34,925 bases of DNA from a virus. The notes under the pieces are model-generated. The model did no database searches. It was not told the DNA's origin and worked only from the letters and a program-made list of their open reading frames with translations. Every line of letters begins with the position of its first letter. The first letter of the stretch is position 1. The stretch lies in IMG/VR virus record IMGVR_UViG_3300010354_000015, positions 1-34,925 of that record; one strand, given 5' to 3'. Of the stretch, positions 22,950 to 34,639 are shown piece by piece. The translations under genes and the position numbers were made by a program.

Positions 22950-29949
<7,000 letters not shown>

Positions 29950-29950
<1 letters not shown>

Positions 29951-30162
29951 TGGAACAGGTACTAGCATACATTAAAGGATTAAGTCCTACACTTGGATTA
30001 GTTGTTAATGTATTGGTTATCGCTATTGTATTCTTAACTAGTTTTACATTATTGGCTGGTATGTGGATTGGATTCTGTATAGCAAGAAAGCGTATGAATC
30101 AAATTGCTGAAATAGAATTCTTTCCACCTAAAATAGTGTTTAAGGAAAAAATAAAAGTATAA
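29950..30162 (+). CDS. Small single-span membrane protein, 70 aa
   Basis: The ATG shares one base with the fibre stop. Residues about 13-45 (TLGLVVNVLVIAIVFLTSFT and on) form one long hydrophobic helix, followed by a basic cluster (ARKRMNQ) and a charged C-terminus, a layout predicting N-out/C-in. As the last gene of the late operon and the clearest membrane protein in the genome it is the best holin or pinholin candidate, but no endolysin is next to it, so this is only inference. Confidence 0.65.
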
Positions 30163-30321: not shown

Positions 30322-30400
30322 CTAATGCCGCCCTACCTTCTGGTGTAAGGTTTGTCGCACAGCGATGGCAATATTAGGATCAAGACATTTCCGGAGTGTC
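30322..30400. ncRNA. Possible three-way-junction RNA plus hairpin
   Basis: CTAAT-GCC (30322-30329) can pair with GGC (30367-30369) and ATTAG (30373-30377), enclosing two hairpins: ACCTT/AAGGT (30335-30339, 30347-30351) and GTCGC/GCGAT (30354-30358, 30362-30366). A further stem GACATT/AGTGTC (30384-30389, 30395-30400) follows. It lies beyond the terminator and before the end of the leftward methyltransferase gene, so it could be the 3' UTR of the leftward transcript. The stems are short; confidence is limited. Confidence 0.35.
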
Positions 30401-31374: not shown

Positions 31375-31386
31375 ATTACTACTTAT

Positions 31387-31660
31387 GCCCCGACTTCAGG
31401 GCTTGCTCGGGACCACACAAGAAAAAACTAATGGTGGGGTAGTCCATTAGAACCCTTGCCCTGCTTGCCGAGAAGCATCAATATTATTTAATTAAGATAT
31501 CCCGATTTGGGCGCATTCGGGATCGATGTTATGAGCGTTTGCGTTAGGTGCTCACCCACCACATGATGTCAAAAGTTCTACCGTACTGTGCGCCTACGGT
31601 AGCAGAGGTTCCAAAGGGCTTATATAGGATTTATAGTATGAACACAAAAAGTTATAAGCC
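31387..31660. ncRNA. Densely structured non-coding region (leader RNA candidate)
   Basis: Within the gene-free stretch 31375-31900. Stems: CAGGGC (31397-31402) with GCCCTG (31458-31463) and CTCGG (31406-31410) with CCGAG (31468-31472), which cross as a pseudoknot; CTAATGG/CCATTAG (31428-31434, 31444-31450); ATCCCGA/TCGGGAT (31499-31505, 31517-31523); TGAGC/GCTCA (31532-31536, 31550-31554); CTACCGTA/TACGGTAG (31578-31585, 31595-31602); GGCTTATA/TATAAGCC (31617-31624, 31653-31660). It is GC-richer than its surroundings. A leftward promoter lies just to its right, so a minus-strand 5' leader or RNA is my preferred reading. No known riboswitch recognised. Confidence 0.6.
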
Positions 31661-31721: not shown

Positions 31722-31759
31722 TTTTATGCGCATAAAACATTATTTTATGCATAAAATAA
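31722..31759. promoter_or_regulatory. Tandem palindromic operators (or origin elements)
   Basis: TTTTATGCGCATAAAA (31722-31737) and TTATTTTATGCATAAAATAA (31740-31759) are perfect palindromes sharing the TTTTATGC half site. Their centres are 20 bases apart, about two helical turns, so two dimers would bind the same face of DNA. They lie between the two divergent promoters, close to the leftward -35. A repressor or activator site is likeliest; a replication origin element is the alternative. Confidence 0.7.
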
Positions 31760-31768
31760 AACATTAAT

Positions 31769-31811
31769 AAAATCAATGACTTACAGCGCCTATTCGTAAG
31801 TCATTGATTTT
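31769..31811. promoter_or_regulatory. 16-bp perfect inverted repeat between divergent promoters
   Basis: AAAATCAATGACTTAC (31769-31784) and its exact reverse complement (31796-31811) flank an 11-base spacer. With A4 at one end and T4 at the other it could act as a bidirectional terminator insulating the two promoters, but the stem is AT-rich. A protein-binding site or an origin hairpin are alternatives. Confidence 0.65.
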
Positions 31812-31827
31812 GCTGGAATTATAATTG

Positions 31828-31855
31828 TTGCATTAGGCCTGTATATCTGTATAAT
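31828..31855 (+). promoter_or_regulatory. Rightward sigma70-like promoter
   Basis: TTGCAT (31828-31833), 16 bases, TATAAT (31850-31855). It sits 45 bases before the start of the acidic 65-residue gene and mirrors the leftward promoter. Confidence 0.65.
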
Positions 31856-31860
31856 TGATT

Positions 31861-31882
31861 ATGTAGTCGATGTTGACTACGT
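31861..31882. promoter_or_regulatory. Inverted repeat at the rightward transcription start
   Basis: ATGTAGTC (31861-31868) and GACTACGT (31875-31882) pair over eight bases with one T-G mismatch in DNA terms. Directly after the -10 it could be an operator or a 5' hairpin of the mRNA. Confidence 0.5.
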
Positions 31883-31900
31883 TGTTTTACGAGGTGATTT

Positions 31901-32098
31901 ATGTCTACTTATTCACATTTGTCTAATAGCGAGTTGTTTCAACGTATTTGTGACCTTGCTGATGATCATCGTGATGACGATGAGTTGTATAACGACACAG
32001 GTGAGGTTGATTATACATTGACTCATTTGCGTATGCTTATTGACGAACTTGACAATCGTGTTGCAGAAAAGTTGCTCAACGAGGATAATGACGAATAA
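31901..32098 (+). CDS. Highly acidic small protein, 65 aa
   Basis: ATG 31901 follows GAGGTGATTT, the strongest ribosome-binding site in the window. The product has 19 Asp/Glu against 5 Arg/Lys, mostly in DDHRDDDELYND (21-32) and the end NEDNDE, with a helical middle (LTHLRMLIDELDNRVAEKLL). It has its own promoter and terminator, so it is a stand-alone transcription unit, as early phage regulators or anti-defence proteins often are. DNA mimicry is a guess from charge. No family recognised. Confidence 0.75.
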   Translation: MSTYSHLSNSELFQRICDLADDHRDDDELYNDTGEVDYTLTHLRMLIDELDNRVAEKLLNEDNDE

Positions 32099-32158: not shown

Positions 32159-33355
32159 ATGCATATGAACAACTTTAATAATTTATTTGAAACACAAGAT
32201 TACTGGTCCACATATGAGAATGGACCATATAAGGAAATAGGTTTTTTTGTAAGTGATCAACACTTTATAACAACAGGTGGTATTGGTCAATTTGCTAAAG
32301 CATTCTATGATATGTGTACAACATTTCATTGTAGAGTGCATTTTATTTTAGATAAACCACCTAGCAAAGATTTTTACAAATACTTTACAAAAGCAGTATT
32401 ACATTATCCTGATGATGTAATACCCTATACAATACATCAAGACAATTATTTTCGCACAGACACATACAATATGTATAAGCAGGCGAATTTTCATAGTGCA
32501 TTGATAAAAGCAAAACAATATTTGGATAATAAAAGTTTTGATATTATTATTTGTAATACACATGAATCACTAATGCCTGCATATAGTAATGGATGTAAAG
32601 ATATTATCTTTTACACACATTTACAAAAACACATTCATTTAAATGCTAATAGTTTTAAATTTTCACAAGAATTTCATAACTTGACTCATGTATTGAGTAT
32701 GTTGCCAGATATTACAATTGGAACGCAAAGTCAATATAACGCAAAGTTTTTACGACAACATTATAAAAATGTAGAAGTATTGCCTATACCTATGCCTGAT
32801 CAAAATTTTTTAAAAGAGTATAAAGGTGACAAACATGGTGTATTATATGTAGGAAGGTATGAAACACCTAGTAGGTCAGAAAGGTTTTTGGATATTTGTA
32901 AACAAGCAAATGTACCTGTTAAAATTATGACAACTAGAAAAAGTGCAGAAAAGTTTAAAGAAAAATGTATTGCACTAGGTTTGGAACATGAAATACGTCA
33001 TAATTTATTTGGTCAAGAAAAACTTGACTTTATGTTATCAAGTAGATTAATGTTAAATGTAAGCAAGAAAGATAGTTTTTGTATTGCTGCATTAGAATGT
33101 ATTGGACACATGCCAGTTATTGTACAAGACGATCAACAAGAATGGACACCATTTTTTGATAAACGATATATGATTACTTGTAGTAAAAAAGATATTGCTA
33201 ATCAAGTAAAGACATATTATGAATCAACTTATACCAAAGAGTTTTTTCCTAAATCATGGTACGGTAATGGTAGTTTAGATTACGTTCAATTACTTCATTA
33301 TGAAGCATATGATATTTGGAACGATTATATTAATAGAGATAGGGTAGATTTATAA
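32159..33355 (+). CDS. GT-B fold glycosyltransferase (GT4-like)
   Basis: 398 residues from ATG 32159; a TTG nine bases upstream lies within the terminator T-run and is rejected, and ATG 32165 is also possible. TTGGIGQFAKAF (38-49) is the N-terminal glycine loop, VEVLPIPMP the linker, VLYVGRYETPSR the start of the C-terminal domain, and SKKDSFCIAALECIGHMPVIV the donor-binding E-x7-E-like block in a form with fewer acidic residues. Expected to move a sugar from a nucleotide donor. With the FkbM and other methyltransferase genes it suggests glycan synthesis or modification. The ribosome-binding site is weak. Confidence 0.85.
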   Translation: MHMNNFNNLFETQDYWSTYENGPYKEIGFFVSDQHFITTGGIGQFAKAFYDMCTTFHCRVHFILDKPPSKDFYKYFTKAVLHYPDDVIPYTIHQDNYFRTDTYNMYKQANFHSALIKAKQYLDNKSFDIIICNTHESLMPAYSNGCKDIIFYTHLQKHIHLNANSFKFSQEFHNLTHVLSMLPDITIGTQSQYNAKFLRQHYKNVEVLPIPMPDQNFLKEYKGDKHGVLYVGRYETPSRSERFLDICKQANVPVKIMTTRKSAEKFKEKCIALGLEHEIRHNLFGQEKLDFMLSSRLMLNVSKKDSFCIAALECIGHMPVIVQDDQQEWTPFFDKRYMITCSKKDIANQVKTYYESTYTKEFFPKSWYGNGSLDYVQLLHYEAYDIWNDYINRDRVDL

Positions 33356-33582
33356 TGGGTCAGTATACATTAACCAAATACGAAAAGCGTTTAATTGATA
33401 AGGCTATACTAGATGGTGTAGATAAAGGTGTGTATAAGAAATTTGACATACCTACATTCAATCACGCACTATGTACAACTATGCCACAATGGCGTGCAGA
33501 AGAATTGACCAAAGGTCAGAATACACGCAATATCGCATATATTGACTATGTAAAAGATTTTTATAGAATTAAGTATAAATGA
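33355..33582 (+). CDS. Hypothetical protein, 75 aa
   Basis: Its ATG shares one base with the glycosyltransferase stop; AGGG lies upstream. MGQYTLTKYEKRLIDKAIL, then FDIPTFNHALCTTMPQWRAEEL and a basic C-terminus. Helical, charge-rich, no family recognised. Co-translated with the glycosyltransferase. Confidence 0.65.
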   Translation: MGQYTLTKYEKRLIDKAILDGVDKGVYKKFDIPTFNHALCTTMPQWRAEELTKGQNTRNIAYIDYVKDFYRIKYK

Positions 33583-33593
33583 CTAAATACTTT

Positions 33594-33617
33594 TGTACTT
33601 TAGACAAAGTACATTTT
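33594..33617 (+). terminator. Intrinsic terminator after the glycosyltransferase unit
   Basis: TGTACTTT (33594-33601) pairs with AAAGTACA (33606-33613) around an AGAC loop, followed by TTTT (33614-33617). The stem is AT-rich, so it is moderate in strength; it could instead be the first helix of the structured region that follows. Confidence 0.7.
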
Positions 33618-34090
33618 ATCCTATTGTCTGCGGGCATGTTGTTAGCGCAGCATGCCCATTCTCGCTAAAGTAGATTAATAGGATGCAGGCACATAGAGAC
33701 CAACTCAAGGCTGAAACTAACTGTATGGCATATGCAGCCACGAATGCATTGGAATCACGTAGGAAGTACGGTAACACCTGTGTCAGTTAGCACAAAATAA
33801 TTTAAGCGATGCGTCATAGTAAAAAAGGTAGAGGGCGCATACTAGACATACAGGTTCACTAACTATTCTGTATGTTAATAGTGAATACGCTAACAGCCCA
33901 TTGGGTGCGTGAGATATAGTCAATCCGCTGCGTTAAATGTTATGAGTTAGGACCTTATACCTCGGTATGGTTTGGGTTTGTGGTAATATATCTACCCCTT
34001 ACCCTGTGTATGATTTAGTATCAATTAAAAAAAGAAAACATGAGCGGGCTGTGCCCGCGAAATGTGTGTCTTGAACGAAGTGAAAGACAC
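33618..34090. ncRNA. Long structured non-coding region (candidate ornate RNA)
   Basis: No gene in 33583-34162. Stems seen: ATCCTATT/AATAGGAT (33618-33625, 33677-33684) around GGGCATG/CATGCCC (33632-33638, 33651-33657), with GTCTGC (33626-33631) able to pair across to GCAGGC (33685-33690); GGCTG/CAGCC (33709-33713, 33735-33739) crossing CTAACTG/CAGTTAG (33717-33723, 33784-33790); CATACAG/CTGTATG (33847-33853, 33868-33874) crossing TTCACTA/TAGTGAA (33855-33861, 33879-33885); GTTAGC/GCTAAC (33786-33791, 33889-33894); GGGT-GGTA/TACC-ACCC (33974-34004); GCGGGC/GCCCGC (34044-34058); GTGTCTT/AAGACAC (34066-34072, 34084-34090). The density resembles large phage RNAs such as GOLLD or ROOL; identity is not claimed. 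Strand unknown. Confidence 0.55.
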
Positions 34091-34110
34091 TTAATGTTAT
34101 CCATGCAAAA

Positions 34111-34139
34111 TTGACATAAAAAACTAAATATCTTATAAT
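34111..34139 (+). promoter_or_regulatory. Perfect consensus sigma70 promoter of the main operon
   Basis: TTGACA (34111-34116), 17 bases, TATAAT (34134-34139): no mismatch in either box and optimal spacing. It lies 23 bases before the 34163 gene. No other strong promoter is evident before the late terminator at 30288 on the circular map, so it may drive about 31 kb. Confidence 0.88.
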
Positions 34140-34162: not shown

Positions 34163-34639
34163 ATGAAAGAAATAATAAAAGTGGTATACAAAACCAAAGT
34201 AACAAATAGCAATAACACATATATGGATATACCAGATAGTGTTAAAAAGCAAATACTAACTGCATTGGATAGTGTACATCATAACTTTAGTGAATTGGCA
34301 TTAAGCAGTAATAGTTTTGTACATGAATGCGTAAAATGGTATAACGAACCCAATAAAGAATTGCCATACAGCACATTACATAAATGCAAGAATAGCCCAA
34401 GTACATTTATTAGTGGTGTACTTAATAACATGCGTTATGGCAATCAATATGATTTTGCTGATACTCAATTTGAAATTATCAAAAAGTTATTGGAACAAAC
34501 ATCTAAAATATTAGAAGCCATAAAATACGATGAAAAAATTGCTGTACAAAACAAATCTAAATATGGCACTATACAATTAGTTGACAAATACGAAGATGTA
34601 TCTGGTAATGCATTTAGTCAACTATTTCAGGTCAATTAA
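34163..34639 (+). CDS. Hypothetical protein, 158 aa (first gene of the main operon)
   Basis: ATG 34163 follows AGGAGATAACA, a strong ribosome-binding site. A basic start (MKEIIKVVYKTKV) is followed by a mainly helical protein with HHNFSELALSSNSFVHECVKWY and a C-terminal NKSKYGTIQLVDKYEDVSG. Not recognised. As the promoter-proximal gene of the operon that carries the terminase it could be a regulator or a packaging accessory; this is inference from place only. Confidence 0.75.
   Translation: MKEIIKVVYKTKVTNSNNTYMDIPDSVKKQILTALDSVHHNFSELALSSNSFVHECVKWYNEPNKELPYSTLHKCKNSPSTFISGVLNNMRYGNQYDFADTQFEIIKKLLEQTSKILEAIKYDEKIAVQNKSKYGTIQLVDKYEDVSGNAFSQLFQVN

Follow-up and report, generated by a model that had tools for sequence, protein, structure and literature searches.

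Comparison with relatives shows that a gene-free stretch of a virus contig encodes, on the + strand, a putative large structured RNA (hereafter RNA B) of an undescribed family, which occurs in at least two unrelated phage lineages. The window, i.e., the whole stretch of DNA analyzed, was an IMG/VR virus contig of 34,925 bases containing a terminase large subunit gene. An earlier note had treated positions 33618–34090 of the window as a single element of about 470 bases; instead, this stretch is composed of at least two unrelated RNA elements, a leader (element A, 33618–33684) and RNA B (about 33716–34013), and a pair of hairpins (element C, 34038–34090), all arranged in tandem on the + strand. 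As the best explanation overall, RNA B is a member of an undescribed RNA family accompanied by a separate leader and would represent an independent trans-acting non-coding RNA; we consider this rather probable.

No frame of at least 60 aa was present on the + strand between 33582 and 34163. The upstream neighbor, a gene of 75 aa (33355–33582, +), was closed by a terminator-like hairpin, recognized as an inverted repeat (TGTACTTT/AAAGTACA) followed by TTTTAT (33594–33617, +). The next frame (34163–34639, +), encoding a protein of 158 aa, was preceded by a perfect sigma-70 promoter (TTGACA-17-TATAAT, 12 of 12 matches; 34111–34139, +), both flanks agreeing with the earlier description. Pfam and PHROG searches with the 158 aa protein gave no match. 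Its weak match to a GajB stretch (E 7e-4) was probably due to chance.

Members of the RNA B family are 300–500 nt long, with two pseudoknots and nine or more helices; the window copy is a shortened one. Its 5' domain (33717–33790, +) comprised P1 (33717–33723/33784–33790), P2 (33727–33729/33737–33739), P3 (33758–33761/33767–33770), and the pseudoknot PK1 (33732–33736/33745–33749). Relatives were arranged alike and covariation was found among them, so that the crossing stems proposed at 33709–33790 correspond to P1, P2, and PK1. P5 (33809–33815/33834–33840) closed the conserved loop AUAGUAA..GGUAGAG; double changes were found in 7 of 7 pairs, and it was 100% paired, i.e., in all sequences with letters at these positions, via CG, GC, AU, UA, and GU. 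In the covariation alignment, P6 (33841–33844/33879–33882) enclosed the P7 hairpin (33846–33853/33868–33875), the loop of which formed the pseudoknot PK3 (33859–33863 with 33946–33950). PK3 was 93% paired with double changes in 7 of 7 pairs and was recovered by RNAalifold unprompted. Of the crossing stems proposed at 33847–33885, the hairpin was retained, while the crossing partner TTCACTA/TAGTGAA was not conserved in relatives, its place being taken by P6 and PK3 as the conserved partners. The core alignment also included P8 (33897–33899/33903–33905) and P9 (33908–33911/33929–33932), the latter closing the nearly invariant AGAUAUAGUCAAUCC at 33912–33926; many other unpaired bases were nearly invariant as well. 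At the 3' end (33960–34013, +) two copies of a CCU-type motif (33960–33969 and 34003–34013) flanked a small hairpin; these motifs were conserved in relatives, covariation being scored for the core and the 5' and P4 domains. A UUG/CAA pairing between the foot of P5 and the P6–P8 linker was dropped, being kept in just 65% of the sequences.

Most members of the family additionally contained a P4 domain (GGGACUACC..GAUGC..UCCCAU), which was missing from the window as well as from loci L084 and L112. In the window, P1–P3, PK1, P5–P9, PK3, and the 3' motifs were retained, and only a junction (33791–33808, +) was left in place of the P4/P4a domain. The window RNA B represents a longer RNA that has undergone an internal deletion. 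Since this phage lost P4 while the rest of the fold was kept, the domain seems dispensable; alternatively, its loss could reflect decay of the window copy, although P5–PK3 is intact. The window core scored 129.6 bits against covariance model R1, the alignment of which itself contains this core.

Covariation was analyzed in alignment A1, consisting of 46 distinct RNA B cores, the core being delimited to about 180 nt. Double changes were found in 35 of 38 pairs of the core, to be read with the reservation that related sequences partly inherit them jointly. Pairing was possible in 89.5% of 1714 cells, compared with 36.7–45.6% for slid versions of the structure and 70.6% for shuffles, and the covariation score was 0.549 (at most 0.124 when slid and 0.208 when shuffled); the scored structure was read from the same sequences and is therefore favored over its slid versions, while the double changes are independent of that. 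By separate counts, the 5' domain (P1, P2, PK1, and P3) was 94.7% paired and the P4 domain 87.7% paired, with at most 52% for slid versions of either. G.U pairs outnumbered A.C combinations at a ratio of 83:12 in the core and 28:3 and 16:9 outside it, and selection therefore acts on the + strand RNA. The alignments thus show that the predicted fold (P1–P3 with its pseudoknot, P5, P6/P7, P8, P9, and PK3) is maintained by selection at the RNA level.

Folding energy alone would have missed RNA B. The stems reported in the earlier note were indeed present as inverted repeats (including 33618–33625/33677–33684, 33632–33641/33648–33657, and 33846–33853/33868–33875), and the whole stretch of 473 nt folded at −144.5 kcal/mol with z = −3.2, none of 100 shuffles being equally stable (z = −2.1 for the opposite strand). 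This signal originated from element A (33616–33690, z = −4.8) and the tail hairpins (34040–34095, z = −5.1). The RNA B region gave a z of only −1.4 (33714–34016), and a part of it (33800–33955) gave +0.3. The claim of dense structure throughout the 470 bases thus holds by energy for both ends, while the middle needed comparison with relatives, on which the evidence for RNA B is based.

Relatives were collected in several ways. A search with the terminase yielded 80 loci, including L054 with similar DNA, and searches with the 158 aa and 75 aa proteins yielded L082–L086. These relatives contained two conserved blocks with a gene between them. Two DNA patterns derived from the blocks were scanned across IMG/VR, giving 73 and 103 stretches, and the whole arrangement was common to most of these matches. 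Model R1 matched 90 other sources searched with 94–186 bits; a match to L143 (22.7 bits) was excluded as chance. It also matched L084, L013, and L054, the contigs of the latter two being already counted under other locus identifiers. Matches to AAAAAAGGTAGAGG in many loci were rejected, because it is a coding sequence located directly 5' of the terminase gene. Of 17 matched records, 16 had a single copy of RNA B and one, a 277-kb contig, had two. The second copy of this contig (L240:670–1180) was divergent, followed an intrinsic terminator, and had CCACAATGT/ACATTGTGG as PK3.

Within the collections searched, RNA B was confined to virus contigs. Among 84,980 prokaryote species, represented by one genome each, 17 matches to the first pattern and none with the second block were found, the pattern being exact, so that diverged copies escape it. 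No homologues in named phages were revealed by blastn with the window and L120 as queries, and RNA B was not found upstream of the neck gene in Atu_ph07, fEgEco12, and K64-1. Two unrelated phage lineages carried it: T4-like contigs, the largest reaching 364 kb, and small phages, among them that of the window. The gene order of the T4-like lineage was MazG-like gene, RNA B, head–tail adaptor (PHROG 211), and deoxynucleoside monophosphate kinase (PHROG 139). In the tree of cores, the window grouped with small-phage copies (support 100/100). Two changes of lineage label were needed, and a single small-phage clade was not rejected (p-AU 0.40). Transfer between the lineages is thus suggested by the unrelated neighbors and not by many exchanges in the RNA tree.

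To our knowledge, few large structured phage RNAs have been described, and their functions are open. One of them, GOLLD, accumulates during lytic growth and forms a closed RNA-only oligomer. No description of RNA B was found in open papers. Searches against Rfam 15 gave no family match at E ≤ 10 for the window, L082, and L013, at E ≤ 5 for L120, and at E ≤ 0.5 for ten further loci; the covariance models of GOLLD, ROOL, and OLE were likewise without a match in these searches. ARAGORN detected no tRNA genes in 45 loci or in the window, and no tmRNA in the window or the loci. The covariance model and Rfam scan proposed by the earlier note therefore revealed homologues with compensatory changes and no known RNA, in line with its suggestion of an undescribed, structured, phage-encoded RNA.

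The analogy with GOLLD and ROOL, which the earlier note had also drawn, stood as to the kind of RNA and failed in most membership tests, there being no Rfam match and no tRNA neighbors. Both are large phage RNAs with pseudoknots; they frequently lie close to tRNA islands and form RNA-only cages (PMC12286853). RNA B shares with GOLLD its nature as a large pseudoknotted phage RNA of unknown function with a conserved 3' part and a variable 5' part (PMC12286853), as seen in the absence of the P4 domain from three copies that kept P5–PK3; it differs in the lack of a GOLLD match, in length (300–500 nt against 800 or more), and in the absence of tRNA genes from the 45 loci. ROOL is likewise a large RNA of phages and prophages with several pseudoknots and a gene-free locus (PMC12286853), whereas RNA B had no Rfam match, no tRNA neighbors, and was not found in prokaryote genome contigs. 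OLE is a large ornate RNA as well, but of bacteria, while RNA B was without an Rfam match and found in virus contigs only. The lytic phage ICP1, which has no tRNAs, produces an abundant ncRNA of about 800 nt from the orf-less gap between gp139 and gp140 (PMC7567579), also a large RNA in a gene-free gap of a phage; model R1 gave no match to this gap up to E = 10. The ICP1 gap (L239:10098–11108) scored below every Rfam gathering score and may contain another large phage RNA family. RNA B thus loosely resembles the GOLLD, ROOL, and ICP1 RNAs as a large phage RNA of unknown function and is a member of none of them by the tests made; most likely, it is like GOLLD and ROOL in kind and unlike them in sequence or fold. 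It adds a family unrelated to the described large phage RNAs, with strong covariation and about 90 contigs, ranging from a 35-kb phage to contigs of more than 300 kb. Probing, cryo-EM, and pull-down are directly feasible, since the core is short and well delimited, a deletion variant occurs naturally, and a covariance model is available.

Signals surrounding RNA B place it between transcription units. In 26 T4-like loci, a T4-late-type box ([AC]TAAATA, mostly GATAAATA) was found between RNA B and the neck gene in 23 (3.0 expected) and upstream of RNA B in one; in the window, the sigma-70 promoter occupies the corresponding position. Because the next gene has its own promoter, RNA B is unlikely to be its leader. 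RNA B would be produced from the interval that separates the upstream gene from the next promoter and would act in trans, probably folding into a compact particle with multiple pseudoknots. The nearly invariant internal loops (AUAGUAA..GAUAGAG, AGAYAUAGWCAAUCC, and the repeated 3' CCU motif) may then serve as contact sites for one partner, with RNA polymerase, the ribosome, a phage protein, or further copies of RNA B as candidates during infection. A bolder version, which we regard as possible though doubtful, is that RNA B founds a new phage RNA class that is biochemically active in its own right, as an RNA-only assembly, as a ribozyme, or by mimicry that captures host RNA polymerase or ribosomes, and has spread between unrelated phages because it is useful in infection.

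The same surroundings bear on other explanations. In many loci, 0–30 bases separated P1 from the stop codon of the upstream gene, and no recognized promoter was found directly upstream of P1, as expected if RNA B were a 3'-UTR element of the upstream transcript acting in its stability, processing, or antitermination. This is rather unlikely: the upstream gene varied (MazG-like, c8, c21, and others), and intrinsic terminators separated several upstream genes from RNA B, ending a few bases 5' of P1 in several T4-like loci. The missing promoter and these terminators also count against an independent transcript. A cis-acting regulator of the downstream gene (riboswitch, attenuator, or leader) is unlikely too. 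Large riboswitch-like folds are known, the neighboring element A is of such a type, and in the T4-like lineage a neck-protein gene usually comes next; yet a promoter-like sequence intervenes, downstream genes vary by lineage, with extra genes inserted in L094, L113, and L134, and no pairing with a ribosome-binding site was seen.

Many nearly invariant unpaired bases, pseudoknots, and a sharp 5' boundary after differing genes in unrelated lineages would also suit a ribozyme or a mobile RNA, either intron-like or similar to an omega/HEARO guide RNA lacking its nuclease. We consider this very unlikely, because no Rfam match to introns (group I or group II) or HEARO was obtained, frames on both flanks were complete, RNA B was nearly always in single copy, and padloc found no such partner among the neighbors tested. 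The GATATAGTC motif hinted at a group I intron, which was rejected, since the crossing helices lack the P3–P7 order and no gene was interrupted. A function of the structure in the DNA itself, as an origin or as a site of packaging or recombination, to which the intergenic position between transcription units might point, is highly improbable, as the excess of G.U over A.C fits selection on an RNA strand and not on DNA. An independent RNA acting in trans is thus the reading we prefer.

Element A (33618–33684, +) is formed by an outer helix (33618–33625/33677–33684), a hairpin (33632–33641/33648–33657), and a pseudoknot between the hairpin loop (33642–33647) and the tail (33663–33668). The crossing reported earlier at 33618–33690 is this pairing (TTAGCG/CGCTAA), and compensated variants were found among relatives. 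Five of them (L054:131–167, L082:7848–7884, L085:2773–2809, L230, and L238) contained a hairpin of 10–11 bp followed by the exact six-base complement of its loop, and the loop variants TTAGCG, TTAGAG, and TTGTAG represent three compensated states. The 5' strand of the element (TCCTATAATG, TCCTAATAGT, TCCTATAAA; ACCTCA in L006; TTTCTCAATC in L013) is complementary to the ribosome-binding site that precedes the following start codon, and this pairing of the outer helix with the Shine–Dalgarno sequence was kept with different letters in L238, L230, L085, L054, L006, and L013, as judged by eye, without statistical scoring. Such a layout is that of a translation switch, and element A is a probable translation-control leader that was left without its gene in the window, where the outer helix is kept and the small gene following in relatives is gone. 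A frame of 35 codons (33683–33790, +), overlapping P1–P3 of RNA B, is probably a remnant where relatives have a gene of 85–105 aa; positions 33696–33711 matched DNA within the L082 gene in a different frame. Both element A and its gene were present in L006 and L085, from which RNA B was absent by model R1. Like the riboswitch-type pseudoknot leaders controlling translation, element A has a pseudoknotted hairpin inside a helix that appears to occlude the ribosome-binding site; it differs from them in its six-base loop–tail pairing and in matching no Rfam family. It is an undescribed pseudoknot leader and could by itself represent a new translation-control motif.

Element C, located 3' of RNA B and 5' of the next promoter, was present in most small-phage relatives. 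Its first hairpin (34044–34049/34053–34058) is nested inside 34038–34041/34062–34065, and the second one (34066–34072/34084–34090) follows immediately. The first hairpin was enclosed by CAC/GUG in relatives and by CAU/AUG in the window, which is a compensatory change.

Several other features of the window were found. A strong match to the COG2908 RNA (Rfam RF02939, 69.4 bits) was located at 30326–30370 (+), 3' of a small gene (29950–30162). The gene-free stretch 31385–31640 had several visible hairpins and folded no better than shuffles on either strand (z 0.2 and −1.1). Intergenic DNA at 31722–31900 matched L084, L082, L006, and L230 in both orientations and resembles an invertible segment that carries inverted repeats and precedes the gene at 31901. 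A collagen-like protein of 2061 aa with a GATG repeat, probably a tail fiber, was encoded at 23765–29950.
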